From a virus, in IMG/VR virus record IMGVR_UViG_3300008262_000201, positions 1-64,000 of that record: a stretch of 64,000 nucleotides of DNA; one strand, 5' to 3'. How positions within the stretch are numbered: position 1 is the stretch's first letter; the number at the start of each line of letters is the position of its first letter. The notes under the pieces are model-generated. The model was not told the DNA's origin. It made no database searches and saw only the letters and a program-made list of their open reading frames with translations. The translations under genes and the position numbers were made by a program. Shown here piece after piece: positions 6,498 to 21,323 of this stretch.

Positions 6498-6524
6498 CGT
6501 CCTGGGCATGACGTTAAACTGCCT
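6498..6524 (+). promoter_or_regulatory. Leader pseudoknot, family 2, copy 1
   Basis: P1 CGTC/GACG encloses CT-GGGC-AT; after TTAAACT, GCCT (6521-6524) pairs with the loop GGGC to form P2. The ATG at 6548 is 23 nt later. Confidence 0.8.
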
Positions 6525-6547
6525 ATTCTACTTACTCATTTAACCCA

Positions 6548-6847
6548 ATGGAAATCAATTCTCCAACACCTCCTTTAGATCTTGTCAATGATTGGATGAC
6601 ACATTGGTATGACGATAACCAAACAGATGACACGCAACCGCTGTATATTGCAACTAAAGCTTCAATGTGGGGCGCAATCTGGGGTGCTACCAATGCTTTG
6701 GAAACAGCCATCCAAGACACGGCACCTGTTCATTGGCGCGTAGCTGGTGGGGCAGAAGATGGCCAACAGGTAGTACGTGTTATTGATTTAATGGAATGGC
6801 TTGCACAGTTCCGTAAAGAATACGAAGAAAAGATGTCTTGTAATTAA
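6548..6847 (+). CDS. Unknown 99-residue protein
   Basis: Trp-rich with normal composition (SMWGAIWGATNALE, RKEYEEKM at the end). No recognised family. The start is set by the pseudoknot leader. It is followed by a second family 2 pseudoknot serving the PcfJ-like gene. Confidence 0.75.
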   Translation: MEINSPTPPLDLVNDWMTHWYDDNQTDDTQPLYIATKASMWGAIWGATNALETAIQDTAPVHWRVAGGAEDGQQVVRVIDLMEWLAQFRKEYEEKMSCN

Positions 6848-6852
6848 TCAAC

Positions 6853-6879
6853 CGTCCTGGACATGACGCTAAACTGTCC
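6853..6879 (+). promoter_or_regulatory. Leader pseudoknot, family 2, copy 2
   Basis: P1 CGTC/GACG, loop CT-GGAC-AT, linker CTAAACT, P2' GTCC. The loop and P2' have both changed relative to copy 1 (GGGC/GCCT), preserving pairing. The ATG at 6903 is 23 nt later. Confidence 0.85.
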
Positions 6880-6902
6880 ATTCCACTTACCTACACTACA
6901 CC

Positions 6903-8642
6903 ATGCAATTCGCTCTGCCTTCCAATCTTCAGACTGAACTCTTGGCTTATGATCCAAAGCTCAAGGCTTTGGCTAAGCAAGCCAACAAACCAGAAGCCAA
7001 GAAACCGACGTATCCACTTGGCAAGATTCCTTGCTTGATACCAACACACATTGTGCGTGAAGCCGATCAGCAAGATGCAATTGCTCAGATCAATCAGCGT
7101 CCAGCACCACAGCGTTATCAAGTCTTTACTACACCTGTAGATGTAGCAACACCACAGGCTAGGCTCAAGGTCATTGCCATCCTGTATCACTACGAACAGG
7201 TGTGGTATGCAGCATGGTTACCTTCTAAGCAAGAGAAGGATCAGTATGTGTACGGTCATGCGTATGCATTCAAGAACACATCAGCTACACAGAAGACTGC
7301 ACCAAATTGGATATGGAATAGCAAAGATGATTGCGTTGTCCACGACATTGGTCGTGGCTCACAACTCTTTGTCTACACCAATACAGCAACCATAGAAGAT
7401 ATCCGCGAAAAAGATTACGATAGCTGGCGTAGTTATCCATGGCGAGCAGGTAACCTTTACTGCCAGAAGGGTTATACAATTCGTGATACTGTTGTTAATG
7501 AATTTGATAACAGCCTGCGGGAAAATCTCCCAACATGGGAAGATTCCCGTGGATTGTTTGATCGCATACGCTGCAAGAATATCTTTGATGCAGCAAACAT
7601 ACCGTCAATGATGTCAAAGCATCTTGATGAAACTCAAGGCTTGACTGTTGATAACTTCATTGCTGCTTCACTTGCATTCAAAGAAGAACACGGCTATAGC
7701 TCATTAACGTATTCTGTTGTCACAAAGATTCAGCACATTGTTACTAAACCTGCCATCAAGAAACTATTGCAAGCAGAGTTAAACCGTAGCATTGATGCAT
7801 ATAATGATCCCAATAACAAACACCAGCAACCTATTAGGCAAGGCTTTGCAACTTTTGTGCAGATCCTTAACTCAATCGAGTGGATTGATTCCATCTGGCC
7901 AGACTGCCCTATTGATTACTATCAGACTTATTTCAAAGAACTTAAGTATCTTCGCTTGACTGAAGTGCGTCTACGCAGTGGGGCTACACAAGAGCCTTGT
8001 TTAATCGACTGGTTACGTGAGCACATGCCTATTGCATCACTGTTTACAATCATGCGTAAGTACTTGGACAAACAACTTACTGAATACAATGGTCGCTGGG
8101 TTGACAGCGATGTTGGGTACCAGCGTCAACGCTTTGGTGAACTCAACGATACATTCTCCATGATGCTTAAGATCCTTCATGTTGGTAATACATTGGAGCC
8201 ACCGAAGCGTTGGCGTCTGACCGAGTTCCATGACTACGTACAATCCGAAGCATGGAAGATCCAGAATCCAAAGGAGTCCCTACGTCAAGATCTATTTCCT
8301 GAACCCATCAAAGTCACACGTCTTGATAGGGTATGGACATTCTTTCAGCCTGTTGACACACATCAACTATCCATGTGGGGGCAAGCCGTACGCAACTGCG
8401 TTGGCTCTGCATCCCACTATGCGGATGACATCAAGAAACGTAAGCACTTCATTGTGTTATGTATGATTGATAACAAGCCCACCTTCACAATTCAATTGGT
8501 TGTGGACCAGGGTATGATGTCAGTCAAGCAGATTGCTGGCGTTGGCAATCGCAGTCTTGACTCAATAGAACGCAACGATTACACGGAAGCCTTCCGTGAG
8601 GTCTTGCAATTGCGTGAATCTGAGCTAAGCTCTAAGAGCTGA
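6903..8642 (+). CDS. PcfJ-domain-like large protein
   Basis: 579 residues. The C-terminal region (about 490-550) carries a PcfJ-like signature: W-G-x-x-V-R-N-C-V-G-S ... ADDIKKRKHFIVLC...KPTFTIQL..., followed by V-K-Q-I-A-G-V-G-N-R. PcfJ domains occur in conjugative elements and phages; their biochemical role is not settled. The ~480-residue N-terminal part has no recognised motif. Start set by the family 2 leader. A hairpin terminator follows at 8655. Confidence 0.8.
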   Translation: MQFALPSNLQTELLAYDPKLKALAKQANKPEAKKPTYPLGKIPCLIPTHIVREADQQDAIAQINQRPAPQRYQVFTTPVDVATPQARLKVIAILYHYEQVWYAAWLPSKQEKDQYVYGHAYAFKNTSATQKTAPNWIWNSKDDCVVHDIGRGSQLFVYTNTATIEDIREKDYDSWRSYPWRAGNLYCQKGYTIRDTVVNEFDNSLRENLPTWEDSRGLFDRIRCKNIFDAANIPSMMSKHLDETQGLTVDNFIAASLAFKEEHGYSSLTYSVVTKIQHIVTKPAIKKLLQAELNRSIDAYNDPNNKHQQPIRQGFATFVQILNSIEWIDSIWPDCPIDYYQTYFKELKYLRLTEVRLRSGATQEPCLIDWLREHMPIASLFTIMRKYLDKQLTEYNGRWVDSDVGYQRQRFGELNDTFSMMLKILHVGNTLEPPKRWRLTEFHDYVQSEAWKIQNPKESLRQDLFPEPIKVTRLDRVWTFFQPVDTHQLSMWGQAVRNCVGSASHYADDIKKRKHFIVLCMIDNKPTFTIQLVVDQGMMSVKQIAGVGNRSLDSIERNDYTEAFREVLQLRESELSSKS

Positions 8643-8654
8643 AGCCACAGCAGG

Positions 8655-8682
8655 GGCATCCTATCCTCGTAAATGGGATGCC
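8655..8682 (+). terminator. Hairpin after the PcfJ-like gene
   Basis: GGCATCC (8655-8661) pairs with GGATGCC (8676-8682), followed by TCTTTACC. It is only 9 nt before the next ATG, so it may also act as a leader structure for that gene. Confidence 0.6.
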
Positions 8683-8691
8683 TCTTTACCT

Positions 8692-8901
8692 ATGGACTAC
8701 ACCGATGACCAACTACTTGCCATGGCCATGGCCAACATTGGTGAGTACATTACGGACAACTCACCGCAGTACATCTTGATTGAAGAAGATCCTCGCAATG
8801 AGGATGACTACGATAGCTGGACTTACGGAATGGAAGTCCTGCCTCAAGATCACACTTGGCAGTCAGATTCAATTGACGTAAGCCCAAGTGAGGCCGACTA
8901 G
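8692..8901 (+). CDS. Unknown very acidic 69-residue protein
   Basis: Very acidic, including EEDPRNEDDYDSW, with no motif. The TAG stop (8899-8901) lies inside the tRNA-Leu gene, so the last three codons double as the tRNA acceptor 5' strand. Confidence 0.65.
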   Translation: MDYTDDQLLAMAMANIGEYITDNSPQYILIEEDPRNEDDYDSWTYGMEVLPQDHTWQSDSIDVSPSEAD

Positions 8902-8967
8902 CCCAACGGCAGAGGCAAGCGACTTAAAATCGCTACAGTCCCGGTTCGAATCCGGGGTCGGCTACCA
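8892..8967 (+). tRNA. tRNA-Leu (anticodon UAA), short variable loop, CCA encoded
   Basis: Acceptor GGCCGAC (8892-8898)/GTCGGCT (8957-8963), D stem GCC/GGC, anticodon stem AGCGA/TCGCT with loop CTTAAAA (anticodon TAA), T arm CCCGG-TTCGAAT-CCGGG, discriminator A and genomic CCA (8965-8967). The variable region is only ACAGT, whereas standard bacterial tRNA-Leu has a long variable arm. It overlaps the end of the preceding gene and lies 18 nt before the next ATG. Confidence 0.9.
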
Positions 8968-8985
8968 ACTCAACACACTACACCA

Positions 8986-9345
8986 ATGGACATCATTCGT
9001 TCGATCAAGTGCCTTATTCCTGAGTTCCATGCCTTCAGTGCTGAGGACAGGGGCTATCACGTTGGTGCTACCTGGACTGACGACCAGGGGTTGCGTGACT
9101 ATCACAACGTTGAACTCAAGTACACACGCAACTCAGAACGTCTAGCGCTCCAAGGCAAGCAGCAGCCTGATGGCAGTTGGCTTTACATTGAACCCAATGG
9201 TCGTTGCCATGTCATGTCAGCAGAGCGTGCTGCTCACTTCATGGCCCAGGCACAGGCACAAGCTCAGATCCTGGAACAAATGTTACAGAACATGAACACA
9301 GATGGAGGCGATGGAGTGGTAGACACCACTGCGATAACTGTGTAA
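8986..9345 (+). CDS. Unknown 119-residue protein
   Basis: Contains a Gln/Ala stretch (AERAAHFMAQAQAQAQILEQ) near residue 95 and an aromatic N-terminal half. No family recognised. The leader after the tRNA 3' end is AACTCAACACACTACACCA, the same style as after the leader hairpins. Confidence 0.75.
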   Translation: MDIIRSIKCLIPEFHAFSAEDRGYHVGATWTDDQGLRDYHNVELKYTRNSERLALQGKQQPDGSWLYIEPNGRCHVMSAERAAHFMAQAQAQAQILEQMLQNMNTDGGDGVVDTTAITV

Positions 9346-9369
9346 GATCATCTAGCCAAGGACTACTCA

Positions 9370-9389
9370 GCCCCTGCGTAAGCGGGGGC
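9370..9389 (+). terminator. GNRA-capped hairpin
   Basis: GCCCCTGC pairs with GCGGGGGC (one G-U pair) around a GTAA tetraloop, followed by CTTCCTTC and then the ATG at 9398. It could be a terminator or a 5' protective structure. Confidence 0.6.
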
Positions 9390-9397
9390 CTTCCTTC

Positions 9398-9718
9398 ATG
9401 ACAAACGATTCTATTGATCTTGACCTTGTTGACCAAACCATTGCACTGATACCAGAGCAAGCCTGGACTCAAGTGAGACAAGCAATTATTACAGCCTTAG
9501 TTGATAACATGCCTGGCTTTGCACTTGAGAAGTTGACAGGTACTTATGATGGCTTCGATCGTGCAGAAGAGATTCTGTATGACTACTATCAACTTCCTGC
9601 TTTAAAACAAGATCTTATTGTTGATGCATTCAGTATCATGGGTGCATTCAATTGCCTCGAACTACTTAGCTCATTGAATCTTACTGAAGATGAATTGCAG
9701 ACAATGCAACAGCAGTAA
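9398..9718 (+). CDS. Unknown acidic 106-residue protein
   Basis: Acidic and helical, with no motif recognised. It overlaps the following zinc-ribbon gene by 29 bp in another frame. Confidence 0.7.
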   Translation: MTNDSIDLDLVDQTIALIPEQAWTQVRQAIITALVDNMPGFALEKLTGTYDGFDRAEEILYDYYQLPALKQDLIVDAFSIMGAFNCLELLSSLNLTEDELQTMQQQ

Positions 9719-10025
9719 CACACGCGTTACTTGTACTGAACATCTGGGACCTGATGTAACCAAACGCTATTGTCGTTGTCTTGATTGTGGTTGCAAGTTC
9801 CGTACTGTTGAACGGTACGAAGTTGCTAAACCAATTCCATTAAAAGCCTACAAACCTATTGGTACCAGGAATGGAAACTCTTTCTTGACTGACAATGATG
9901 TGTTGATGATTCGTCATCTACATCAGAAAGGATTGAGCAATGGTCAGATAGCAATACGCTATGACACTGCTCGCAGTACAATCTCACGTATTGTCAACTA
10001 CAAAACTTACACCAACATCAAATGA
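9690..10025 (+). CDS. Zinc ribbon plus helix-turn-helix regulator
   Basis: 111 residues. The N-terminal zinc ribbon MNCRQCNSSNTRV ... KRYCRCLDCGCKFRTVERYE resembles the NrdR-type four-cysteine ribbon. The C-terminal HTH (about 65-107: FLTDNDVLMIRHLHQKG then IAIRYDTARSTISRIVNYK) is the same module as in the 839 protein. A transcriptional regulator is inferred; there is no ATP-cone domain, so it is not a complete NrdR. Confidence 0.8.
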   Translation: MNCRQCNSSNTRVTCTEHLGPDVTKRYCRCLDCGCKFRTVERYEVAKPIPLKAYKPIGTRNGNSFLTDNDVLMIRHLHQKGLSNGQIAIRYDTARSTISRIVNYKTYTNIK

Positions 10026-10351
10026 CACAACAACACCCGATCACCCCACTACCGAAGCTATTCCAGAGGTGGTCAGAACAGTTTGAAGCAGGGAGACCAC
10101 TCTATGCAATGTTTGAAGATATTTACAGAGCAGGAGCAGACGCTGAGCTGGAGGCGTGCTGTGAGTGGTTACAGGATCCTGATCTCAATGTAGACACTTA
10201 CAAACTCCGCGCCGCACGCCGTCCTCAGCCGCCGAGCCTCAAGGAACAGGCGCTTGCTCTTGTCGAGCAGCACGAAGATGGTTGGCGACCGTCGCCCAAA
10301 GATTGGGACACCCTTCGTCGTGCCCTTGAACAACTTCCCGACAACAACTAA
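10022..10351 (+). CDS. Picocyanobacterial-type 'ITPxPxLxxxW' protein, paralogue 1
   Basis: 109 residues. It shares a start (PITPLPKLFQRW), A-D-A-E-L-E-A-C-C-E-W-L and RAARRPQPPSLKEQAL with the protein at 10661. From memory, proteins of this pattern are common in Synechococcus/Cyanobium genomes and their phages; function unknown. It overlaps the previous stop by 4 bp (ATGA). Confidence 0.85.
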   Translation: MTQQHPITPLPKLFQRWSEQFEAGRPLYAMFEDIYRAGADAELEACCEWLQDPDLNVDTYKLRAARRPQPPSLKEQALALVEQHEDGWRPSPKDWDTLRRALEQLPDNN

Positions 10352-10359
10352 TTACTACA

Positions 10360-10659
10360 ATGACAACCAAGCGACAATTTGATTACAAGATTGGTGACCG
10401 TGTTGCTGAACGTCCCAAACCCCATGGGATCTACACAAACAACCAACAAACAAGAGAACGTATCTCTCAATACAGGAGCCAGCGGTATGGTGAAGTAGTT
10501 GGTATCAACTACAAGAACAACTCACGTGGTGCCACCCAAAAGTTCTTGCTTGTTCGTTGGGATCATTTACCTAGCCCAACTGAACATGCCACTGCACGCA
10601 TCTGTCCTGTGTCAGCGCTAGAACGTCTGACCAAAGAAGTCCTTGTCCCTGGCGAATGA
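10360..10659 (+). CDS. Basic small beta protein, possible nucleic-acid binder
   Basis: 99 residues, basic. It contains YKIGDRVAERP and YGEVVGINYKN...KFLLVRWDH, a pattern of short strands reminiscent of KOW/SH3-like nucleic-acid-binding folds. No family confirmed. It lies between the two paralogous ITPxP proteins. Confidence 0.7.
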   Translation: MTTKRQFDYKIGDRVAERPKPHGIYTNNQQTRERISQYRSQRYGEVVGINYKNNSRGATQKFLLVRWDHLPSPTEHATARICPVSALERLTKEVLVPGE

Positions 10660-10660
10660 C

Positions 10661-11008
10661 ATGACACAAGAACACCCAATCACCCCACCGCCTGAACTGG
10701 TGCAGCAGTGGGTAGACGCTTACTTTGGCGGTGGAATCTCCCATGTAGACCTCGCTGCCCAAGCTGCCCAATGGGGCGCGGACCAGGAGCTGGAGGCGTG
10801 CTGTGAGTGGATTGACTCCTTTCAAAACAAATTTGTTTATGCCCATGATCTTCGTCTTGTCCGCCGCCCCAAGGCGCCGAGCTTGAAGAAACAGGCACTG
10901 GAAGCTTTGACATCTGCACCTGGGCCTGACTATCCCATTGTGATGACAATGCTTAACGCTGATCAACATGCCCTAATCCGCCGCGCCTTAGAGCAACTCG
11001 ATGACTGA
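10661..11008 (+). CDS. Picocyanobacterial-type 'ITPxPxLxxxW' protein, paralogue 2
   Basis: 115 residues from the ATG at 10661 (two bases after the previous stop). It has PITPPPELVQQWVDAY, G-A-D-Q-E-L-E-A-C-C-E-W and VRRPKAPSLKKQALEAL, matching paralogue 1. Higher GC and picocyanobacterial style suggest host origin. Function unknown. Confidence 0.85.
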   Translation: MTQEHPITPPPELVQQWVDAYFGGGISHVDLAAQAAQWGADQELEACCEWIDSFQNKFVYAHDLRLVRRPKAPSLKKQALEALTSAPGPDYPIVMTMLNADQHALIRRALEQLDD

Positions 11009-11210
11009 AAACCAAATCCACTTTATACGTGGTTGCTGTACAACAATCCTTGCCTTTGCAGCTACTGGTTTAATCGCTGCAATCTTTTTGTCACCTGATG
11101 AACCTAAGAACAACTCTAAGTTTGAAGTCATTGATCAGTACGAAGGTTGTTCAGTAATCCGTTACACTGATCCCACATCTCGCTGGCATTACTTCCTTAA
11201 GTGCTCATGA
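11001..11210 (+). CDS. Small membrane protein conserved in cyanophages
   Basis: 69 residues. The N-terminal transmembrane helix (TTILAFAATGLIAAIFL) is followed by a domain with the pattern Y-E-G-C-S-V-I-R-Y-T-D-P ... W-H-Y-F-L-K-C-S. From memory this pattern recurs in cyanophage small proteins. Probably lipid-anchored or periplasmic-facing. The stop overlaps the thyX ATG. Confidence 0.75.
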   Translation: MTENQIHFIRGCCTTILAFAATGLIAAIFLSPDEPKNNSKFEVIDQYEGCSVIRYTDPTSRWHYFLKCS

Positions 11211-11848
11211 ACGTACAACTTGTTTGGGCAACGCCCAATGCAGAGGAAATGATCACGCGCATGGCACGCGTCTCTGCACCAAAGAACCAAGACAACATGG
11301 ATACCGCACCCAAGTTGTTGCGTTATCTGATTAAACATCAGCACTGGTCACCGTACGAGATGGCCAATCTCTGTGTTGAAATCAACACAACACGTGCAAT
11401 CTCACCGCAGATCCTTAGGCATCGTTCCTTCTCATTCCAGGAATTCAGTCAACGTTACGCAGATACCAGTGAACTTGGCTCAGCTATTATTCCTCATCTG
11501 CGTCGACAAGACTTTAAGAATCGTCAAAACAGTATTGATGATTTGTCTGCTGATGCAATCAGTGGTTATTACCGCCGCATTAGCAAGTTGTATGAAGACG
11601 CTGAACATCTCTACCGCGAGATGGTTAGCAGCGGCGTTGCAAAAGAATGTGCCAGGTCCATCCTGCCACTTTCAACACAGACCCGTCTCTTCATGAATGG
11701 CACTATCAGATCTTGGATCCATTATCTACAACTGAGGACTCATGAATCAACCCAACTCGAACACAGAGAAATTGCAGAAACAATTAAAGGAATCTTCTGC
11801 AAAGAATTCCCAATCATCGGAGAGGCTGTGTTCTCAACAGATCAATGA
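11207..11848 (+). CDS. thyX: Flavin-dependent thymidylate synthase ThyX
   Basis: 213 residues. It makes dTMP from dUMP using methylene-tetrahydrofolate, FAD and NADPH. The ThyX signature RHRxxSxxxxSxR is perfect at residues 71-83 (RHRSFSFQEFSQR). The late region (SILPLSTQTRLFMNGTIRSW, THESTQLEHREIA) matches the family C-terminus. Start: ATG 11207 overlaps the previous stop; GTG 11201 is an alternative. It supplies dTTP for phage replication. Confidence 0.96.
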   Translation: MNVQLVWATPNAEEMITRMARVSAPKNQDNMDTAPKLLRYLIKHQHWSPYEMANLCVEINTTRAISPQILRHRSFSFQEFSQRYADTSELGSAIIPHLRRQDFKNRQNSIDDLSADAISGYYRRISKLYEDAEHLYREMVSSGVAKECARSILPLSTQTRLFMNGTIRSWIHYLQLRTHESTQLEHREIAETIKGIFCKEFPIIGEAVFSTDQ

Positions 11849-11960
11849 TCTGATTGAGAGGTATAAAGAACCAGAGCAAGCACGCCAGTTCCTTATGGGG
11901 GCTGGCATCATTGATGAGAATGGAGACCTCATGCCTCCATATCAAAACACCTCAACCTAA
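11742..11960 (+). CDS. Unknown 72-residue protein overlapping thyX
   Basis: The first ~35 residues overlap thyX in another frame and are Ser/Gln-rich. The C-terminal half (QINDLIERYKEPEQARQFLM then AGIIDENGDL) looks like genuine protein. The real start may therefore be internal and non-ATG. No function recognised. Confidence 0.55.
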   Translation: MNQPNSNTEKLQKQLKESSAKNSQSSERLCSQQINDLIERYKEPEQARQFLMGAGIIDENGDLMPPYQNTST

Positions 11961-11983
11961 TTAACTATTACCACTAATCACCT

Positions 11984-12250
11984 ATGACACGACAACAACT
12001 TGTTAATTGTTCCACTGTTACTCAAACAGTATTCGATGCATTCTGGCCACTTGGTATGTATCCAGATGATATGGATACTAGCAATCTTGCTTTAGCCTTG
12101 CGAGCTGTTGCGGATCAAGTCGTGCCGGATCAACAAGAGCCAGCAAGCTCGCCGCACATGGGAAGTTTTATCTCTCATGTAAAGTGGAGCCAGTGCCAGA
12201 CTATTCGCATCCAACTCCTTGCCATTGCTGACGAGCTTGAAGCCCAGTAG
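11984..12250 (+). CDS. Unknown protein of picocyanobacterial type
   Basis: 88 residues, with LALALRAVADQVVPDQQEP near the middle and an R-I-Q-L-L-A-I-A-D-E-L-E end. From memory, short proteins with this ending are frequent in Synechococcus/Cyanobium and their phages. Function unknown. It has an ATTACCACTAATCACCT leader and no ribosome-binding site. Confidence 0.75.
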   Translation: MTRQQLVNCSTVTQTVFDAFWPLGMYPDDMDTSNLALALRAVADQVVPDQQEPASSPHMGSFISHVKWSQCQTIRIQLLAIADELEAQ

Positions 12251-12259
12251 TCACCTTTA

Positions 12260-12376
12260 CTAAAAGGTTGCAGCACTTTGCTTCTTCAGTTCTGTGACGG
12301 CATGCTTGGACTCCACATCCTTGCGTGCCAGCTTTTTCTTTTTGTCCACCAGGTAAACGATCAGTGCCTTGTTCAT
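12260..12376 (-). CDS. Lys-rich 38-residue minus-strand mini-protein
   Basis: Reads MNKALIVYLVDKKKKLARKD then ends TELKKQSAATF. It is the only early gene in this area on the minus strand and, unlike its neighbours, has a clear Shine-Dalgarno (GGAGG, with 9 nt to the ATG). A short hydrophobic start followed by a basic helix suggests a membrane-surface or nucleic-acid-binding peptide. Unrecognised. Confidence 0.5.
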   Translation of the reverse strand: MNKALIVYLVDKKKKLARKDVESKHAVTELKKQSAATF

Positions 12377-12587
12377 TTGATTTGTCCTCCAGTGACGTAA
12401 GGAAAGTAGCAGATGTTACGGTAGGTCAGGCAAAGCCATGGACGGTGTGCTAAGTTCCACCATGCCTTGTCTGTCTTAGCCTGTTATTGTTTCCAGGGTG
12501 GGTAGCCTACGTTGTTCTCTCTGGTCTTGCTAAATGTACAGAAGATAAAAATATGTATGTACTTTTAAAACAACTTGCAGACTAACA
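12377..12587. other. Non-coding gap with inverted repeats
   Basis: No convincing gene. Contains CATGG...CCATG nested in GGCA...TGCC (about 12430-12465) and GTAGCCTAC (about 12506). It lies between a minus-strand mini-gene and the plus-strand gene at 12588, so promoters for both are expected here. A regulatory RNA cannot be excluded. Confidence 0.4.
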
Positions 12588-13072: not shown

Positions 13073-13095
13073 CTAGCCATTACCACTAATCCTCC

Positions 13096-13488: not shown

Positions 13489-13507
13489 TCGCTTCTCCTA
13501 ATCACCC

Positions 13508-13698: not shown

Positions 13699-13725
13699 GG
13701 ACCTGAGCACGTCCTAAAACTACTC
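13699..13725 (+). promoter_or_regulatory. Leader pseudoknot, family 2, copy 3 (divergent)
   Basis: P1 is GGAC/GTCC rather than CGTC/GACG, a compensated change. Loop CT-GAGC-AC, linker TAAAACT, P2' ACTC pairs with GAG (three or four pairs). The ATG at 13762 is 36 nt away, longer than in the other copies. Confidence 0.65.
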
Positions 13726-13761
13726 ATCAGTTTTCCTTATCATTCAACTCAACTCAACACC

Positions 13762-14520
13762 ATGAAACTCCTCAAGTTTTCCACAGGTAACGGCAAGCTC
13801 AAGAATCGTCTGATCTTCAACATCCCAGCGGGCTATGCATGTCCACACGCTGGTGTCTGTAAGACCATGGCTGATCGTGTCACTGGCAAGATCATGGACC
13901 TACCTCAGTTCACTGGCACAGAAGCAGATGAGTATCGTTGCTTTGCTGCTATGGCAGAGACCAGGCCAACCGTACGTGAAGCTCGTTGGCACAACTGGGA
14001 TCTGCTGCGTGAGACCATGCATATGAATGGGAATCAAGCCATGCTTTTGCGTGATCTGATCGACCTATCACTCTCAATGCAGCCATTGAAGAAGCTGCTT
14101 CGGATCCATGAGTCAGGCGATTTCTGGACTGAGAACTACATGCGTGCTTGGATCATGGTCGCACAAGAGCGTCCTAAGCAAACCTTCTACGCATACACCA
14201 AGTCGCTTGGAATGTGGCTGAACCTCAAGGACATCATCCCATCTAACTTTTATCTCACTGCGTCGCAAGGTGGAACACTCGACTACCTGATCCCCAAGTA
14301 CCCTGAAGTGTTCCAGCGCATTGCTCATGTGGTCTACACAGAAGAGGAAGCGCAAGAGCGTGGGCTAGAGATCGATCATGACGACAGCCATTGCCTTGGT
14401 GACAAGCCGTTCGCACTCTTGGTTCATGGTTCCCAGAGGGCTGGATCTGATGCCATGAAAGCCTTAACGCAACGGAAGAAAGAAGGTAAGTTTGTAGGTT
14501 ACGGTAAGTCACAAAGGTAG
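13762..14520 (+). CDS. GP88-family-like protein
   Basis: 252 residues from ATG 13762, placed after the pseudoknot. Pattern: K-L-L-K-F-S-T-G-N-G-K-L ... FNIPAGYACPHAGVC (cysteine cluster, about 18-32), then LLRIHESGDFWTENYMRAW, PKQTFYAYTKSLGMW and SNFYLTASQGG. These match the phage Gp88 family, which shows the 'IH.SGDF.S..Y..AW..IA...P...F.AYT+S' signature. The biochemical role of the family is not established; the paired cysteines suggest metal or cluster binding. Confidence 0.8.
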   Translation: MKLLKFSTGNGKLKNRLIFNIPAGYACPHAGVCKTMADRVTGKIMDLPQFTGTEADEYRCFAAMAETRPTVREARWHNWDLLRETMHMNGNQAMLLRDLIDLSLSMQPLKKLLRIHESGDFWTENYMRAWIMVAQERPKQTFYAYTKSLGMWLNLKDIIPSNFYLTASQGGTLDYLIPKYPEVFQRIAHVVYTEEEAQERGLEIDHDDSHCLGDKPFALLVHGSQRAGSDAMKALTQRKKEGKFVGYGKSQR

Positions 14521-14527
14521 TTATCAC

Positions 14528-14560: not shown

Positions 14561-14567
14561 CTGTTCA

Positions 14568-14801
14568 ATGGCTTACATCATTAGTACGTTGGTGGATGGT
14601 GTGCCACACGCCATCCATGCCAATAGTTCCGACTCCAAGTTTGAACTGTTAGCTTTGGATTCTGCTAGTTCACTTAGTAGAATTTACTCCCATCCTTACC
14701 GGGCTGGTGCTTATCAAGTTCTAAGTTGGATCCTGGACAATGAACCCACACTCTCCTGTTATGAGCTCCAGGTTTCCGATGAAGCCCGGTTCCAAAAATG
14801 A
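14568..14801 (+). CDS. Unknown 77-residue protein
   Basis: No family recognised; composition is normal. It overlaps the start of the DNA polymerase gene by up to 62 bp, so the two are probably co-translated. Confidence 0.65.
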   Translation: MAYIISTLVDGVPHAIHANSSDSKFELLALDSASSLSRIYSHPYRAGAYQVLSWILDNEPTLSCYELQVSDEARFQK

Positions 14802-16602
14802 ATCTTGGTTAGTCTTTGATATTGAAACCAATGGCCTCTACGATAAAGTCACGAAAGTTTTTTGTATCGTTATCTACGATATCAACCGAGAAGAAACTTT
14901 TGCTTATGGGCCTGATCGCATTGATGATGCTCTTGCTCATCTGGCAACCGGTGATGTACTCATTGGTCACAATGTGATCTTCTACGACGTACCGGTTCTG
15001 CAAAAACTACATTCATTCAACTGCAAAACACGCATCCTTGACACACTCATCTGCACACGACTCATTTGGCCCAAAGAAAAACTCTACGACCTTGACGTAC
15101 AACTCTATCCGGAAGTTCCGAAGAACTACCGCGGGATGGCCGGTCTTAAAGCCTGGGGTTACCGCCTCTCCGATAACAAGATTGAGTTCAAAGATTTCTC
15201 GGAGTACTCAGAAGAAATGCTTGTCTATTGCAAGCAAGACGTCTCGGTTACTTCAAAACTTTGGAGGCATATCGCCAACCAAGGCTATCCAGAACAAGCT
15301 CTCAAACTTGAACACGACTTTGCTCTTGCCATTAATAAACAAATTAGAGCAGGTGTTTCTTTTGATGTGGATGCAGCTATTGATCTTGTGGATAATCTCC
15401 GAGCAAGAGAAGCACAGCTTGAAACGGAACTAAAAGAAATCTTTCCGCCAATCGAACATCGTAATTGGTTTACTCCTAAGGTCAACAATAAAAATCGTGG
15501 CTATGTCAAAGGAGTACCTTTTGAAAAAATCCATTACGAAGAATTCAATCCTGGATCTCGTGATCAAATTGCTGATCGACTCAAGGCTAAGTACGGATGG
15601 CAACCAGAAAAGACAACTGAAAAAGGAAATCCAATCCTTAATGATGAAGTGTTAGAGGCATTGCCTTATCCAGAAGCCAAGCCTCTGGCAGAATACATGC
15701 TCATCAAGAAACGCCTTGGTCAAATTGCAGATGGCAACAACGCTTGGCTCAAGCTGGTTAATAATGACAGCAGTCGTATGCACGGTGACGTTGTTACTAA
15801 CGGCTGCGTCACTGGTCGTTGTGCTCACCGATACCCAAATATGGGTCAGGTTCCAGCAGGCTATTCGCCATACGGCAAAGAATGTCGGTCATTATTTCAT
15901 GCACCACAAGGATGGGACATGATTGGTATCGATGCCAAAGCATTGGAGCTACGATGTCTTGCTGGTTACCTTGCCATCTATGACGGTGGTGAGTATGCAC
16001 GTGTGGTCACGGATCCAACAATTGACATTCACGTGTACAACCAAGAGCGTTTTGGTGTTGCTACCAGGGACATCAGTAAGCGTTTACTGTATGCCGTGTT
16101 GTATGGCGCTGGTCACCTTAAGGCTGGCAGCATTGTGGATCCGAATGAAAAAGATGAAGAAGTTCTGCGTAAACTAGGAAGAACTGCAATTAATTCATTC
16201 ATGGCTGAGGTGCCAGCCTTGAAAGAACTTAAGGAACGTATTGAATCTCAGATTGCAAACAATGATTGTCTCATTGGATTAGATCGCCGTATTCTTTATT
16301 GCCGTTCGGCATTCAAAGGATTGAATGTTTTATTACAATCAGCAGGCGCAATCCTCATGAAGCAAGTTGTTATTAACATTCATGACAACATTGAGTCTGC
16401 CCTCAGTCTGCCCCATGGGGCAGAGTGGGAACAAGTCTTGATGGTTCATGACGAAGTGCAACTGGTTTGTAGTCCCAAATACACTGAACAGATCAGAGCC
16501 CAAGCATTGGCAGCTTTTCCACAAGCACAGCAATTCTTTGGATTCCTCTGTGACATTGAGGGAGATTCTCGTGTAGGATCCAACTGGAGCCAAACGCACT
16601 GA
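14740..16602 (+). CDS. Family A DNA polymerase (T7-like) with 3'-5' exonuclease
   Basis: 620 residues; the replicative polymerase. Exonuclease: LVFDIETNG (D27, E29), GHNVIFYD (D83), YCKQD (D167). Polymerase: motif A GIDAKALELR (D398), motif B RDISKRLLYAVLYG (R443, K447, Y451, Y455), motif C VHDE (H570-E572). Layout and length match T7 gp5 without a longer insertion. Y451 occupies the position corresponding to T7 Tyr526, the tyrosine type associated with virulent phages. Start: ATG 14740, or 14779 (MKPGSKNESW). It sits beside SSB and other replication genes. Confidence 0.97.
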   Translation: MNPHSPVMSSRFPMKPGSKNESWLVFDIETNGLYDKVTKVFCIVIYDINREETFAYGPDRIDDALAHLATGDVLIGHNVIFYDVPVLQKLHSFNCKTRILDTLICTRLIWPKEKLYDLDVQLYPEVPKNYRGMAGLKAWGYRLSDNKIEFKDFSEYSEEMLVYCKQDVSVTSKLWRHIANQGYPEQALKLEHDFALAINKQIRAGVSFDVDAAIDLVDNLRAREAQLETELKEIFPPIEHRNWFTPKVNNKNRGYVKGVPFEKIHYEEFNPGSRDQIADRLKAKYGWQPEKTTEKGNPILNDEVLEALPYPEAKPLAEYMLIKKRLGQIADGNNAWLKLVNNDSSRMHGDVVTNGCVTGRCAHRYPNMGQVPAGYSPYGKECRSLFHAPQGWDMIGIDAKALELRCLAGYLAIYDGGEYARVVTDPTIDIHVYNQERFGVATRDISKRLLYAVLYGAGHLKAGSIVDPNEKDEEVLRKLGRTAINSFMAEVPALKELKERIESQIANNDCLIGLDRRILYCRSAFKGLNVLLQSAGAILMKQVVINIHDNIESALSLPHGAEWEQVLMVHDEVQLVCSPKYTEQIRAQALAAFPQAQQFFGFLCDIEGDSRVGSNWSQTH

Positions 16603-16608
16603 GCTCTT

Positions 16609-16635
16609 CGTCCTAAGTATGACGCTAAACTACTT
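16609..16635 (+). promoter_or_regulatory. Leader pseudoknot, family 2, copy 4
   Basis: P1 CGTC/GACG, loop CT-AAGT-AT, linker CTAAACT, P2' ACTT. P2 AAGT/ACTT differs from the other copies at all four positions yet still pairs fully. The ATG at 16656 (SSB) is 20 nt later. Confidence 0.85.
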
Positions 16636-16655
16636 ATCACCTACTGTTTGAACAC

Positions 16656-17456
16656 ATGAACTTTGTTACAGTTTGCGCTCAACTCAACGACACACCTCGC
16701 GAAGTTTATACTTCTGCCACATCAAGCAACTATGTTGCAGAGGTAATGCTTCCTCCTGTAGGAAAAAATAAATCTGCAACATCTCTTGCGCTTCATGTTT
16801 ACGGCAAGGCTGCTGAGAAATTCAGGACCCTTGATCGTGGTGCTCGTTTGTATGTACACGGTTCAAAGATCCGTTACGATATTGATGCCAAGGCATACTC
16901 ACTGCACGGCGGTGTTATTGCAGTTGTTAATGATTCGTTTCCAATTTTTAACGATGTGATTCTTACTGGTCGTTGCATTAAAGACATCGATCAAGAAGAT
17001 GCACGTGCGTTTAAGACAACACCAGATGGTTTGATGATTGCCAATCAAACCATCTCAGTTAATACTGGTCGGAACCAAGGAGACTTGTTCAACTTCTATG
17101 CAATTAATAGCAAGGATGACAAGTTAAATAACGCTGAGTTGATGGTCAACTTTACACGGAAAGGAACTGGACTTACCATTCGTGGCCGTCTTGTTACCGA
17201 TGCATGGACTGATAAAGAAACACAACAACGCCGAACACTGACCAAGATCCAGCTTGTGCAGATGACCTTGGCGCCAAAGCCTGGCATCAACGAGCCAAAG
17301 CCCGTAGCGTCCCAGACGACGGTTGCTTCTTCTGATAATGTTGCTACACTGTGGGGCGGCAAGACTGCCGAAGATTCCTGGAGCCAAGGTCTGCCTGATC
17401 TCCCTGGTCAGTACGGACCAGCTCCTGAGCCTACTCCTGAATTCATTCCGTTCTGA
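16656..17456 (+). CDS. Single-stranded DNA-binding protein, two tandem OB folds
   Basis: 266 residues. First OB region about 1-80 (MNFVTVCAQLNDTPREVY ... LHVYGKAAEKF), second about 98-210 (DVILTGRCIKDI ... ANQTISVNTGRNQ ... FNFYAINSKDD). It ends in a Pro/Glu-rich linker and EFIPF, resembling the DDDIPF-type SSB tip that recruits replication partners. It lies directly after the polymerase and is preceded by a family 2 pseudoknot, so autoregulation through the leader is a testable idea. Confidence 0.85.
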   Translation: MNFVTVCAQLNDTPREVYTSATSSNYVAEVMLPPVGKNKSATSLALHVYGKAAEKFRTLDRGARLYVHGSKIRYDIDAKAYSLHGGVIAVVNDSFPIFNDVILTGRCIKDIDQEDARAFKTTPDGLMIANQTISVNTGRNQGDLFNFYAINSKDDKLNNAELMVNFTRKGTGLTIRGRLVTDAWTDKETQQRRTLTKIQLVQMTLAPKPGINEPKPVASQTTVASSDNVATLWGGKTAEDSWSQGLPDLPGQYGPAPEPTPEFIPF

Positions 17457-17459
17457 CTC

Positions 17460-17690
17460 ATGCCTCTTCAACTTGATTTACAAGAACAAGATCTTCTTTC
17501 TTTAGAAGACGCCATTGCGTACGAATTTTTTATGGAGAGTGCATACAACATTATGCACAGTGCTAATGAAAAGGATTTAGACATTGCTGAACAAGTTTTA
17601 AAACTTGCTCAAGCTTCTTATCTGATTGCAAATATTTTTTGCGAAGTACGTTTAATTAACTCACAACAAACCAATGACACCGACGCATGA
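17460..17690 (+). CDS. Unknown 76-residue acidic helical protein
   Basis: Starts 3 nt after the SSB stop, acidic and helical throughout, with no motif. Probably co-transcribed with SSB. Confidence 0.7.
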   Translation: MPLQLDLQEQDLLSLEDAIAYEFFMESAYNIMHSANEKDLDIAEQVLKLAQASYLIANIFCEVRLINSQQTNDTDA

Positions 17691-17913
17691 TCAGTTCACT
17701 CTCCTCTATGAGGATGAGCACACTAAACTTCTGTATGAATTCAAGGCTCTTGTTGCTGACGATGTAATCAATCACCTTGTGGATTTTCTCAAGGGTTGTG
17801 GCTACATGGAAAGCAGTATCTTTGAATGCATGAAAGAATCTTCTGAGGCATATTTCGATTCATTACGTACTCAGCAGTACGTAATGAAATGGGACAAGCC
17901 TGAAGCAGAATGA
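17674..17913 (+). CDS. Unknown 79-residue acidic protein
   Basis: Overlaps the previous gene by 17 bp. No motif beyond a helical, acidic composition. The following pseudoknot begins 5 nt after its stop. Confidence 0.65.
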   Translation: MTPTHDQFTLLYEDEHTKLLYEFKALVADDVINHLVDFLKGCGYMESSIFECMKESSEAYFDSLRTQQYVMKWDKPEAE

Positions 17914-17918
17914 TGATT

Positions 17919-17945
17919 CGTCCTGAGCATGACGTTAAACTGCTT
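17919..17945 (+). promoter_or_regulatory. Leader pseudoknot, family 2, copy 5
   Basis: P1 CGTC/GACG, loop CT-GAGC-AT, linker TTAAACT, P2' GCTT (pairs GAGC through one G-U). The ATG at 17967 is 21 nt later, which fixes that start over upstream in-frame 17910. Confidence 0.8.
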
Positions 17946-17966
17946 ACTCCTGACTACGAAACAACC

Positions 17967-18983
17967 ATGACTTCTTCGATGACCACCAAGAAAACTTCTG
18001 CGCTTGCATCCAGGGGACTTGATTCCTTTAAGCTTTTCCAAGCCAAAGAGTTTGTTTCTGGCTACCAGAATCTTGTAACAATTCAACCACTAAACAAATC
18101 AAAAGTACGTGGTTGGTTTGTCCGCAAGTCTGATCTTGATACCTGCGGATGGACTGCTACTGAAGATGAGTTTGCCAATGGTTCCGTCATCTGGAACTAT
18201 AAGCAGACCTTTGGTATGGCACCTAATACCTCCATTGAAGAGGGACTTAACTTCACGGAACCTCGCGTCCAGATCTTGTTGCGTTCTCCACTCATGGTGG
18301 AAGAGACAACTGGGATGCGTCAAACGATTGGCACCTTTGAAGATCCAGAGGTCAAAGCCATGTTTGAAAATGACAAGATTGCATCCGACCTTGCTAACAG
18401 CAAGGGCGAGATGTACAAGCGTAAGTACAGTGTACGTACAAAGTACCTTGTATATATCCTGACCCAGGACAACAAGCGTGCTCATAAGATCCCCATGGTG
18501 CTAACACTCAAGGGTCTTAACGGAACCGATGTTTCCGACAAGGTTAAGCTGTACGAAAAGGAAATGTCTAAATGCCTGAGCAAGGCACTGGACTCTGAGG
18601 TACCGCTGGCATTCAACGAGAAGTTTTACGCCACTACGGTGTTTACTCCCGTCCTTGCCAACGAGATGCGTGGTGCTAACAACGTAGAGATTTGCGCCAT
18701 CGAATCTTTTGACATCCCTGACTACAGCTCCCAAGAGGAAGCGGTTGCATCATTGGGCCGCCTTTCGATTCCTGATGAAGATCGTGAATCGACTTGGAAG
18801 TACCAAGGGATGTTTGAAGACTATATAAATCAACATTCTCGCCAAGATGCGCAGCGTCTTGGTGGTGCTTACGGAATCAAAGATGGCGTACAGATTCTTC
18901 CCGTCTCACGCATCGCAGATGCAGTTGATGTGAAAGCATTGCCTGCACGCAATGAACTAACCGGAGAAGATCTTAGCCTTTGA
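17967..18983 (+). CDS. Conserved protein of unknown function, DUF5895-like
   Basis: 338 residues from ATG 17967. It contains SFKLFQAKEFVSGYQNLV near the N-terminus and YLVYILTQDNKRAHKIPMVL in the centre. I associate this arrangement with a cyanobacterial/cyanophage family (DUF5895), without certainty. It sits in the replication block between SSB and the Gp157-like gene, so a DNA-metabolism role is plausible. It converges with the minus-strand gene 18973 and overlaps it by 11 bp. Confidence 0.6.
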   Translation: MTSSMTTKKTSALASRGLDSFKLFQAKEFVSGYQNLVTIQPLNKSKVRGWFVRKSDLDTCGWTATEDEFANGSVIWNYKQTFGMAPNTSIEEGLNFTEPRVQILLRSPLMVEETTGMRQTIGTFEDPEVKAMFENDKIASDLANSKGEMYKRKYSVRTKYLVYILTQDNKRAHKIPMVLTLKGLNGTDVSDKVKLYEKEMSKCLSKALDSEVPLAFNEKFYATTVFTPVLANEMRGANNVEICAIESFDIPDYSSQEEAVASLGRLSIPDEDRESTWKYQGMFEDYINQHSRQDAQRLGGAYGIKDGVQILPVSRIADAVDVKALPARNELTGEDLSL

Positions 18984-19212
18984 GGCGGTTCAAGATGTCA
19001 TGGTCAACTTGATTACTCATCAAGTCCATGGCATCCTTTACTAATCCTTTAATAGCAACTTGACGCATCGTGGCGATCTTCGTTAGTAAGGTCGCCATTT
19101 CTTTTAGCTCACTCATTGAACTGCATTCGTTAATGGAACGTATCATCTTCTCTTGCCAGAAGGCTTCTTCTGGACCCATTTCAAATTGCAACATGGGATT
19201 CAATTGTTTCAA
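18973..19212 (-). CDS. Conserved 79-residue helical protein
   Basis: Has LQFEMGPEEAFWQEKMIRSI and LKEMATLLTKIATMRQVAIK, both amphipathic helices. From memory similar short proteins occur in cyanobacteria and cyanophages; function unknown. It is an isolated minus-strand gene. Confidence 0.7.
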   Translation of the reverse strand: MKQLNPMLQFEMGPEEAFWQEKMIRSINECSSMSELKEMATLLTKIATMRQVAIKGLVKDAMDLMSNQVDHDILNRLKG

Positions 19213-19254
19213 AGTATTCTAACTACAACGTAAACTTAATTAAACCTTTTGTTT

Positions 19255-19461
19255 ATGTTAGGGATTCAACACATGAAACCAGAAGACAAAGCTGCTCTTA
19301 CCGTCGGTGCTCAAACTGCATTAGTGACAGCGGCTGCTGCCATCCTTCTGCCTAACCCAGTCTCCTGGGCGGCTGCTATAGTGGCAACGTACCGCATGGC
19401 CAAGCGTGCTCGCATCCAATCTCTGATTGACCAAGGGCAAGCCAAGTACTGGAGGGGGTAA
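19255..19461 (+). CDS. Small hydrophobic protein
   Basis: 68 residues from ATG 19255 (62 from 19273, which follows an ATTCAACAC leader). A hydrophobic Ala-rich span (ALVTAAAAILLPNPVSWAAA) is followed by a basic helix with RMAKRARIQSLID. Probably membrane-associated. Function unknown. Confidence 0.65.
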   Translation: MLGIQHMKPEDKAALTVGAQTALVTAAAAILLPNPVSWAAAIVATYRMAKRARIQSLIDQGQAKYWRG

Positions 19462-19497
19462 CCACCTGGTACAACACACCAACTCAATTCAAATCAA

Positions 19498-20433
19498 ATG
19501 CAAACACAAGTTGAGCTTAATGCAGCGCAAGCTGCAATCTATACACGCACGAATCTTTCACGTGCCTTTCAAGACTTTGATGACACCGACATTGGTGGCA
19601 TCTATTTGCGAGGCGATGATTGTGTTGTGGTGCGTCGCGATGGTAGCGAGCAAGCTTACAACAGGGAACTAATCAAGACTTCCTTTAACAACTACACCCA
19701 CCGTCTTAAAGATTTCTTTTCCTATCTTGGTCCCAATTATCGTGGCCCTAGTGTATGGCACAACAATGCTTACATTCTTTTTAAGGGCTGGAACTACTCA
19801 CACGCACTCGGACACCTGAGCTCCCATGCAAAACTACAAGCACACTGGGCTGACAAATTTATACATGTATCAAACACCGACAAAGTCTTGCACCTCCTCC
19901 AGTCCGATCAAACGGATATTGGACATTTGGTTGCGCCAGACGGATTGCGGCTTCCGAATCGGCCCATTGACATTGACGGTGACATGGAAGCTGACGACTC
20001 CGAGCCTGTCATGGGTGAACCTTGGTGTTCGTGTGGGTCGTATCAGCGTCAGCTCAGCAACGTATCTGACTTTGCGTCCGAGATCCAAGGATTCAAACCC
20101 TGGTGCATCCACCTGACTTGGTTCAACAAGTACAGGGAACTGCTGTGCAAGCGCACCGAAGCACGGAATGCCAGTCCCAGTGGCACACCTGAGAAGTGTG
20201 TTGCCTGGTGGTATGCACCACCCGCTGATCACATCAGTGATGGACGCTTTGTATTGTTGTATACAAACTCAGGTGCACAAGCTCCGCTCAGTCATTGGCG
20301 TACCTACAAGCCCAAGGATATCTTTACCCAGCATGATGCATGGGATCTGTTTTTCAATATGATGGAGGCTGGCTACGTTCCATTCCCTGGTACTGCATTG
20401 CCACAACTCAAGTCTGCTGTCAAAAAACAATGA
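19498..20433 (+). CDS. Unknown protein with SWIM-type zinc-finger pattern
   Basis: 311 residues. A C-x-C (W-C-S-C-G, about 177-179) and a later C-x-H (W-C-I-H-L, about 203-205), about 24 residues apart, match the CxCxnCxH SWIM pattern, a probable zinc-binding nucleic-acid or protein interaction module. The N-terminal 150 residues are unassigned. It has a CAACTCAATTCAAATCAA leader. The stop overlaps the next ATG. Confidence 0.65.
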   Translation: MQTQVELNAAQAAIYTRTNLSRAFQDFDDTDIGGIYLRGDDCVVVRRDGSEQAYNRELIKTSFNNYTHRLKDFFSYLGPNYRGPSVWHNNAYILFKGWNYSHALGHLSSHAKLQAHWADKFIHVSNTDKVLHLLQSDQTDIGHLVAPDGLRLPNRPIDIDGDMEADDSEPVMGEPWCSCGSYQRQLSNVSDFASEIQGFKPWCIHLTWFNKYRELLCKRTEARNASPSGTPEKCVAWWYAPPADHISDGRFVLLYTNSGAQAPLSHWRTYKPKDIFTQHDAWDLFFNMMEAGYVPFPGTALPQLKSAVKKQ

Positions 20434-20744
20434 CATTTCAAATCGATAATGGCGTTGTTTACCTAGGTACTCAATGCCCCAGTACAATACTCAAAATTGA
20501 GTCAAAAGATTCAATGATTGACCCTGAGCTACGCAAGTATGCAACAGAGTTAGTCAACAAACCTTTTCCAAAACAAATGATGCTATCCAACGGCAAGTAC
20601 TCACTACACCTTGAACTTGATGAAGACACTTACTGGGGTCTTGTTAAGCTAGGTGCAGAAATCAAAACTGATTGTGAAACTTATGCAGAACACATCCTCA
20701 TTGGGCATATTGAATCCGGACTCGATCAACAAGCTACAGATTGA
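20430..20744 (+). CDS. Unknown 104-residue protein
   Basis: The ATG at 20430 overlaps the previous TGA. It contains SNGKYSLHLELDEDTYWGLVKLGAE, which resembles the downstream protein (MTIHIEWDETDPDLQWWTDLGAE), suggesting paralogy. Function unknown. Confidence 0.7.
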   Translation: MTFQIDNGVVYLGTQCPSTILKIESKDSMIDPELRKYATELVNKPFPKQMMLSNGKYSLHLELDEDTYWGLVKLGAEIKTDCETYAEHILIGHIESGLDQQATD

Positions 20745-20898
20745 ATGCATTGAAGAAGAGGATGGTTCCATGACCATTCATATCGAATGGGATGAAACAG
20801 ATCCCGATCTTCAATGGTGGACAGATCTTGGCGCAGAAGGCCAAGAAACCTTTATGATTAATGCACTCCAACAAGCTTGTGATTGTTATGTCGATTGA
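20683..20898 (+). CDS. Unknown small acidic protein, start uncertain
   Basis: The conserved-looking part is IHIEWDETDPDLQWWTDLGA followed by a helix ending in QQACDCYVD. Upstream in-frame starts are ATG 20683 or 20653, both overlapping the previous gene, and neither has a ribosome-binding site. Function unknown. Confidence 0.6.
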   Translation: MQNTSSLGILNPDSINKLQIECIEEEDGSMTIHIEWDETDPDLQWWTDLGAEGQETFMINALQQACDCYVD

Positions 20899-21274
20899 CA
20901 CCTACGGCCTTAGCTCTGAGCAGTACACCGAGTTCTTTCATAAGAACATTCGTGCTGCAGCCAAGCTTTACTTGGATACCTGCAACATTTTGAGCAGCGA
21001 AGGGGTCGGCAATGTCGACTTCAAAACTGTCTCAGAGATGTACCAAGAAGCTGTGTACACTACCAATGATGATTGCCGTCGTTACCAAAAGAGTAACAAC
21101 CCCGAGGCTCTCAAAGATACTGATCTGCTAGGTATCTATCCTTCTAGAGAAGAGCTGTTGGCTGAGATCCAGGCTGTCAATGCCAAGGTCGAAGCACTGA
21201 ACGACTACGTTGCTGAGTTAGTTGCGGTCACCACCAAAGGGCTTACCGGCATTGCTGATCGCCTGGTAGACTAA
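20888..21274 (+). CDS. Unknown 128-residue helical protein
   Basis: ATG 20888 overlaps the previous gene by 11 bp. A long C-terminal helix with heptad character (EELLAEIQAVNAKVEALNDY) points to a coiled coil. No family recognised. Confidence 0.7.
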   Translation: MSIDTYGLSSEQYTEFFHKNIRAAAKLYLDTCNILSSEGVGNVDFKTVSEMYQEAVYTTNDDCRRYQKSNNPEALKDTDLLGIYPSREELLAEIQAVNAKVEALNDYVAELVAVTTKGLTGIADRLVD

Positions 21275-21296
21275 ACCCGCCGCCCTGCAGGGACGC

Positions 21297-21323
21297 CGTC
21301 CTGGTCAAGACGTAAAACTGACC
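21297..21323 (+). promoter_or_regulatory. Leader pseudoknot, family 2, copy 6
   Basis: P1 CGTC/GACG, loop CT-GGTC-AA, linker TAAAACT, P2' GACC, fully complementary to GGTC. The ATG at 21344 is 20 nt later. Confidence 0.85.

Follow-up and report, generated by a model that had tools for sequence, protein, structure and literature searches.

Pseudoknot copies and the genes that they precede

The virus record analysed here (IMG/VR IMGVR_UViG_3300008262_000201; 64,223 bases) belongs to a relative of the freshwater cyanophage S-EIV1, and its first 64 kb are the stretch that we refer to as the window. Six genes in the window are each preceded by a copy of the same 28-nt H-type pseudoknot (hereafter the knot), and the neighbouring DNA polymerase A gene, which has no knot, provides an internal negative control.

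Genes:
6548..6847, + strand: 99-aa protein of no named family, gene served
6903..8642, + strand: PcfJ-like (PF14284), gene served
13762..14520, + strand: GP88 (PF17338), gene served
14740..16602, + strand: DNA polymerase A, neighbour gene without knot, internal negative control
16656..17456, + strand: single-stranded DNA-binding protein SSB (PF00436), gene served
17967..18983, + strand: DUF5895 (PF19247), gene served
21344..21457, + strand: 37-aa single-span membrane peptide, gene served

Knot copies:
6498..6525, + strand: copy 1, CGTC CT GGGCA T GACG TTAAAC TGCCT A; 5 nt past the stop codon at 6490-6492, with the ATG at 6548 (99-aa gene) 22 nt on
6853..6880, + strand: copy 2, CGTC CT GGACA T GACG CTAAAC TGTCC A; 5 nt past the stop at 6845-6847, with the ATG at 6903 (PcfJ-like) 22 nt on
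13699..13726, + strand: copy 3, P1 GGAC/GTCC, P2 with a C.A mismatch, L3 TAAAAC; ATG at 13762 (GP88) 35 nt on
16609..16636, + strand: copy 4, CGTC CT AAGTA T GACG CTAAAC TACTT A; 6 nt past the DNA polymerase stop (16602), with the ATG at 16656 (SSB) 19 nt on
17919..17946, + strand: copy 5, CGTC CT GAGCA T GACG TTAAAC TGCTT A; 5 nt past the stop at 17911-17913, with the ATG at 17967 (DUF5895) 20 nt on
21297..21324, + strand: copy 6, CGTC CT GGTCA A GACG TAAAAC TGACC A; 22 nt past the stop at 21274, with the ATG at 21344 (37-aa membrane peptide) 19 nt on

The six copies are confirmed as real: all were located where an earlier note on this DNA had placed them, and with the H-type shape that it had described. 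The knot consists of a 4-bp stem P1, a first loop L1 (CY), a single-nucleotide L2, a 6-nt L3 (NUAAAC) and a second stem P2 that can be drawn as 5-6 bp, (U)NNNNA/UNNNN(A), the sixth U-A pair being optional, so that its common form reads CGUC-CU-NNNNA-U-GACG-NUAAAC-UNNNN(A). In the window L1 is CU, L3 is UUAAAC, CUAAAC or UAAAAC, and P1 is perfect in all six copies (CGTC/GACG in five, GGAC/GTCC at 13699). P2 is fully paired in five of the six; at 13699 it is interrupted by a single C.A mismatch (GAGCA with UACUC), and the GP88 leaders of several relatives show the same mismatch. The earlier claim that every P2 position changes together with its partner held for the five fully paired copies and passed over this mismatch. 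The distances from the 3' end of the knot to the ATG (22, 22, 35, 19, 20 and 19 nt, in order) agree with the 20-23 nt, and once 36, given before if P2 is taken to end one base earlier on its 3' side, while the description of the genes served as larger ones was right in part, since products of 99 and 37 aa are among the six. When relatives of the PcfJ-like gene were located by protein, 17 of 20 retained the knot in the leader; none of 17 relatives of the DNA polymerase A gene carried one.

The window contains further features of note. Two phage tRNA genes lie at 8892-8964 and 28607-28677. A second leader family occupies the region 770-5275, before small genes at 839, 1283, 1724, 2021, 3726, 4043, 4897 and 5288; it has the form CUGGGC-AUCC..hairpin..GG-UGUAAGU-CCCAG, with CUAGG/CCUAG also occurring as the outer stem, and a conserved internal loop CAU/UGUAAGU. 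By eye this family forms a hairpin and no pseudoknot, and 1-7 GTAAGTCC copies per locus are found in 20 related loci.

Covariation of both stems

Strict geometry and sequence taken together pick out six places in the window and nowhere else in it, and the same pattern read backwards gave 0 matches in the genome. Across 50,697 phage records, the true 12-variant query returned 36 matches and the reversed query none. With cores selected on P1 and the loops only, the inner four P2 pairs were formed in 93.2% of cells, as against 75.6% in shuffles (maximum 79.5%) and 37-44% when the strands were slid, with 3-5 pair types at each P2 position. With selection on P2 only, all four P1 pairs were formed in 96 of 102 cores, representing 11 sequence types; CGTC/GACG made up 66 of the 96 distinct fully paired cores, and other P1 sequences occur too. 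The one P1 change noticed earlier, GGAC/GTCC at 13699, was borne out on a larger scale, with this stem present in 102 IMG/VR stretches and CGTC/GACG in at least 120, and the non-complementary combinations GGAC/GACG and CGTC/GTCC in 0 stretches each. Because P1 and P2 both covary in this way, as judged from the shuffles, the selection with P1 left free and the IMG/VR counts, we regard the H-type pseudoknot fold as secure. Covariation, which the earlier note had allowed might vanish with more homologues, became stronger with them, and its other reservation, that the family might already be in Rfam, also fell away: no family in Rfam 15 corresponds to the knot, and the preQ1-I model was unmatched.

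The geometry is nearly rigid. L3 was 6 nt long throughout 205 distinct instances in a scan that permitted three L3 lengths, and the knot of Arthrobacter phage Molivia has an L3 of 9 nt. Among 21 leaders picked without selecting on these bases, the first loop base, C5, was invariant (21/21), and L3 was UUAAAC in 15, CUAAAC in 4, UAAAAC in 1 and UUAAAG in 1. Rare variants with loops of 7, 9 or 10 nt occur in relatives. Such loop-length variants were noticed in the leaders of loci L018, L011, L012, L017, L023 and L024, an example with a 7-nt loop being CGTC-CTGGGAT-GACG-TTAAACTC-ATCC, in which P2 is shifted; those with loops of 9-10 nt stand before SSB.

The RNA behind the knot

The knot of S-EIV1-like phages is associated with the gene that follows it and not with the one ahead: 23 families lie downstream (entropy 3.56 bits) and 50 upstream (4.93 bits). 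The genes behind it in these phages include PcfJ, SSB, GP88, DUF5895 and the membrane peptide, among others. In other phages the RNA that follows is of a different kind. In Nostoc phage NMeng1, Arthrobacter phage Molivia and Mycobacterium phage Bongo, no more than about 4 nt separate the knot from the start of a tRNA, and a scaffold/capsid operon follows the knot in phages or prophages of Enterococcus, Streptococcus and Lactobacillus and in phage D6E; in four capsid operons the order is a terminator-like hairpin with a T-run, then the knot, then scaffold and capsid. In two gut phages the DUF2800 RNA of Rfam (RF02960), a separate 158-nt RNA, directly abuts the knot, beginning 0-1 nt behind it (L191:1500-1685 and L192:1500-1685). 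An intact knot preceded two of the six DUF2800 RNA copies examined; the four others, in Clostridia, had no intact knot, and one of these (L291) had a degenerate one. What the knots have in common is thus the RNA on their 3' side, whether it is translated or not, and this points to stability or processing of RNA as their role.

Two side observations concern this class of locus. The DUF2800 RNA of L191 and L192 ends in a terminator. In the clostridial loci L165 and L169 the knot is directly followed by a similar RNA, about 200 nt long and apparently structured, that had no Rfam match at gathering score.

The breadth of these targets bears on several explanations. One is that the knot is a protein-bound operator, recognised either by the phage SSB, as in the autoregulation of T4 gene 32, or by a conserved host RNA-binding protein with a regulon. 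SSB is among the genes served, the conserved loop bases could be protein contacts, and the leader of gene 32 in T-even phages is likewise an H-type pseudoknot before an SSB gene, as is one of the six copies in the window. That leader is SSB-specific, whereas over 20 gene families, and non-coding RNAs too, are found behind the knot; an operator of the gene 32 type would be restricted to the gene of its binding protein, and we found 23 downstream families, tRNAs and a non-coding RNA. Since the targets are unrelated to one another and may be translated or not, and since the knot occurs in unrelated phages, microviruses and plasmid or chromosomal loci, a phage-specific regulator is ruled out, SSB autoregulation included. 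The suggestion of autoregulation by the SSB or a zinc-ribbon protein does not fit this breadth, nor a ribosome-binding region that the knot leaves untouched, and we consider an operator of any kind improbable, a universal host protein being the likelier binder.

Another explanation is that the knot enhances translation, docking on the platform of the 30S subunit in place of Shine-Dalgarno (SD) pairing for the gene downstream. In S-EIV1-like phages the knot does end about 20 nt before an ATG without an SD. Within 1-28200 of the window, however, the SD is missing at nearly all gene starts, with or without a knot, and the replacement of an SD was rejected as a role because the whole early region does without one. 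(Gene-start leaders in this part of the window are CA/CU-rich, e.g., CAACTCAACTCAACC-ATG.) In other phages an SD is present and the distance varies, and copies precede tRNAs and the DUF2800 RNA, which are untranslated, making an enhancer about as improbable as an operator.

The knot also keeps a characteristic distance from ribosomes. Among 137 cases in cyanophage relatives, the spacer between the stop codon of a long ORF and the knot is 5 nt in 57, 6 nt in 16 and 0-4 nt in none; in a few cyanophage cases the stop codon lies inside the knot, the distances tail off to 60 nt and more, and many copies are far from any stop. The next ATG peaks 19-23 nt behind the knot and is mostly at least 19 nt away. 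These spacings would fit a knot that keeps its fold next to a ribosome in termination and lies clear of one in initiation. They could also speak for a translational insulator, in which the knot would hold back ribosomes that have just terminated, keeping them out of the next leader and of tRNAs, and would mark the docking site of the next initiation complex. The peak at exactly 5 nt, the roughly 20 nt to the ATG and the published observation that coremin, a plant virus RNA to which we return below, also stalls scanning ribosomes (PMC10520033) are in keeping with this. The many copies far from stops (with a tail to 60 nt and more), the copies behind terminators and the class of knots before non-coding RNAs are not, and a sharp lower bound on the spacer is also expected if the knot merely stays folded next to a terminating ribosome. 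We therefore judge the insulator unlikely, if somewhat less so than an enhancer or operator.

A 5-nt stop spacer recalls readthrough signals as well, and in size and topology the knot recalls luteovirus frameshift pseudoknots and the preQ1-I riboswitch (RF00522), the latter being also a small H-type leader pseudoknot with an A-rich third loop. The extensions that readthrough would yield are mostly short and not conserved, and slippery heptamers 5-9 nt upstream are not enriched (7/292 versus 9/292 in the control). As for a small-ligand riboswitch, preQ1-I differs in its loops, and the knot has no overlap with a ribosome-binding site or terminator, no match to the Rfam model and the wrong gene set. 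At gathering score no Rfam riboswitch matched, and around two copies a limit of E<=5 gave none either; P2 is clear of the initiation region. The breadth of downstream RNAs makes a metabolite riboswitch at the ribosome-binding site unlikely, and the hint of a ligand aptamer sits poorly with an element that has over 20 gene families behind it, as well as tRNAs, scaffold genes and the DUF2800 RNA. We consider a riboswitch, frameshift or readthrough signal very improbable.

Range among phages and bacteria

The knot is not confined to S-EIV1-like cyanophages. The named hosts of the phage matches are Nostoc, Synechococcus, Microcystis, Moorella, Geobacillus, Streptococcus, Lactobacillus, Mycobacterium, Arthrobacter, Christensenellales and Acutalibacteraceae; phages of gut Clostridia, two microviruses and one Macrococcoides plasmid also have it, as do 32 bacterial stretches from a search of 84,980 species. 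None of 5,426 E. coli genomes (28 billion bases) contained a knot. Every match with a named host falls in a group that is expected to have the exonuclease RNase J. When bacterial genomes with a knot were searched with the RNase J profile TIGR00649, 24 of the 31 tested scored above the cut-off, and RNase J was present in 14 of the 15 counted as having a paired knot copy in a phage-like setting; the profile was positive in the controls B. subtilis, S. elongatus, Corynebacterium and Lactococcus. This bias of hosts toward groups with RNase J rests on about a dozen lineages and is suggestive.

A subset of the bacterial loci has a layout of its own, in which the knot always lies within a few nucleotides behind a gene for a short peptide of about 15-20 aa (KRF/RRW-M-x-P-R-V-A-H-C-x-x-G-C; in one class KRFMxPRVAHCxxGC, at roughly 16 aa), conserved in many phyla and preceded by a strong SD. 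In many of these loci (L148, L152, L153, L156, L158, L159, L161, L166, L168, L170, L171, L173, L175 and L176 have the peptide) the stop codon is inside the knot. The short-peptide genes often stand near genes that look metal-related by eye, and often have a terminator behind.

RNase J is absent from five knot-bearing short-peptide genomes, two of them beta-proteobacteria, and from 20 relatives of one of these RNase-J-free genomes, a beta-proteobacterium; another enzyme or function must therefore act there. It is these beta-proteobacteria, with a related locus and no RNase J, that fit worst with the explanation by RNase J given below.

Other candidates for the bacterial loci, suggested by their flanks (DGR, group II intron, TnpB omegaRNA and hammerhead), were unsupported by Rfam; at gathering score, the 15 bacterial loci searched gave only a tRNA and a SAM riboswitch, both away from the motif.

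Comparison with known RNAs

The closest likeness that we found is to coremin, GUCCGAAGACGUUAAACUAC, an Xrn1-stalling RNA of plant viruses (PMC10520033). The stem, loop C and spacer of the knot (CGUC-C..-GACG-UUAAACU) equal those of coremin. Coremin (xrRNA_C; Beny-, Cucumo- and other RNA viruses) shares with the knot a 4-bp stem with GUC/GAC, strict spacing, a first loop base C (Y), a last loop base that may be U or A, and the spacer UUAAACU, and both are intergenic or in UTRs, in front of RNAs that have to be preserved. Compared with the definition of coremin, the knot has the hp1 GUC/GAC core (CGTC/GACG in five of the six window copies) and the spacer UUAAACU(AC), and it departs from the definition in two features. 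The coremin loop follows the rule YGAD or YGNNAD, whereas that of the knot is C-Y-NNNN-A-Y/A, with U or C and not G in position 2, so that the lp1 consensus is absent and the first base C and penultimate A agree. Coremin also has an obligatory second hairpin, hp2, after the spacer, in place of which the knot has an 8-nt loop with inner bases that pair 3' of the spacer to form P2 (93% of inner P2 cells paired). Judged by these two features, the knot is not a member of coremin as coremin is defined. Coremin moreover occurs in RNA viruses and the knot in DNA phages and bacteria, where its exonuclease resistance is a presumed one.

Other systems are more distant. The xrRNAs of flaviviruses and of tombus-/solemoviruses resemble the knot in its proposed function, a fold-dependent block of 5'-3' exonucleases, and differ in having much larger ring folds and no sequence similarity to it. 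STAXI (RF01728) also comprises pseudoknots near SSB and DNA-handling genes, but is a 153-nt tandem array with UUCG loops in Enterobacteriales; it was dismissed as the wrong motif, with 0 matches in the phage record at E<=10. Repeats CR1-CR4 of Cluster M mycobacteriophages are not obviously the same, with Bongo having one knot copy, in its tRNA region. We found no report of phage xrRNAs in the literature searched, which covers subscription papers and preprints poorly.

A proposed coremin-like block to 5'-3' decay

The structural claim of the earlier note stood and its functional hints did not; it had overlooked the resemblance to coremin, the far wider distribution and the tendency of the knot to begin 5 nt past a stop codon. 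Taking these together with the downstream RNAs, we propose that the knot may be a coremin-like roadblock to 5'-3' decay, chiefly by RNase J, that would spare the RNA downstream, and we put the probability of this reading at about 0.52. In a polycistronic phage RNA, RNase J would gain entry to the upstream cistron once an endonuclease had cut the RNA or its 5' triphosphate had been removed, and decay from the 5' side of that cistron would halt at P1, leaving the downstream cistron, tRNA or non-coding RNA intact with the knot as a new 5' cap. P1, loop C and the NUAAAC strand correspond to the core of coremin, and the 5-6 bp helix P2, between the loop and the 3' strand, would replace the second hairpin. 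The knot, we infer, would stall the exonuclease, the enzyme would be RNase J, and the phage would benefit.

We favour the roadblock because the core equals that of coremin in stem, loop C and spacer, and because the knot is tied to the RNA behind it, be this a downstream gene, a capsid operon, a tRNA or the DUF2800 RNA. The knot tolerates ribosomes on both sides, with a sharp peak at 5 nt from the stop, no spacer of 0-4 nt, and the ATG mostly at least 19 nt away, and is independent of the SD, being present in an early region without SDs and in other phages with an SD behind the knot. The occurrence of named hosts in RNase J groups, the lack of a knot in E. coli and the 14 of 15 phage-like genomes with RNase J point the same way. 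Published work lends plausibility to the enzyme: RNase J1 of B. subtilis comes to a halt at a flaviviral xrRNA in vitro (PMC5760640), and the RNase J of the cyanobacterium Synechocystis is a robust 5'-3' exonuclease (PMC7283877). The departures from the coremin loop rule YG(NN)AD and from its second hairpin count against the roadblock. The tRNA layout could instead protect the 3' end of the upstream mRNA after RNase P cleavage; this possibility is weakened by the knot following terminators in capsid operons and tracking the downstream gene.

Significance

According to one key paper, xrRNAs never meet RNase J1 in nature (PMC5760640), and the published xrRNA work that we searched concerns eukaryotic viruses. 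We hold it to be about an even chance that RNase J-blocking, coremin-like xrRNAs exist in phages and at a few bacterial loci, where they would carve stable downstream mRNAs, tRNA precursors or non-coding RNAs out of longer transcripts and would be convergent with, or share the fold of, the xrRNAs of eukaryotic RNA viruses. The structure of coremin was unsolved at the time of its publication (PMC10520033), and the phage form, with its extended helix between the loop and the 3' strand, suggests how that core may fold. If the knot stalls RNase J, DNA phages would be using an xrRNA device in a type of cell that had not been searched for one, differences in message stability within compact phage operons would gain a defined 28-nt cause, and a small portable part would become available for stabilising genes in bacteria with RNase J.
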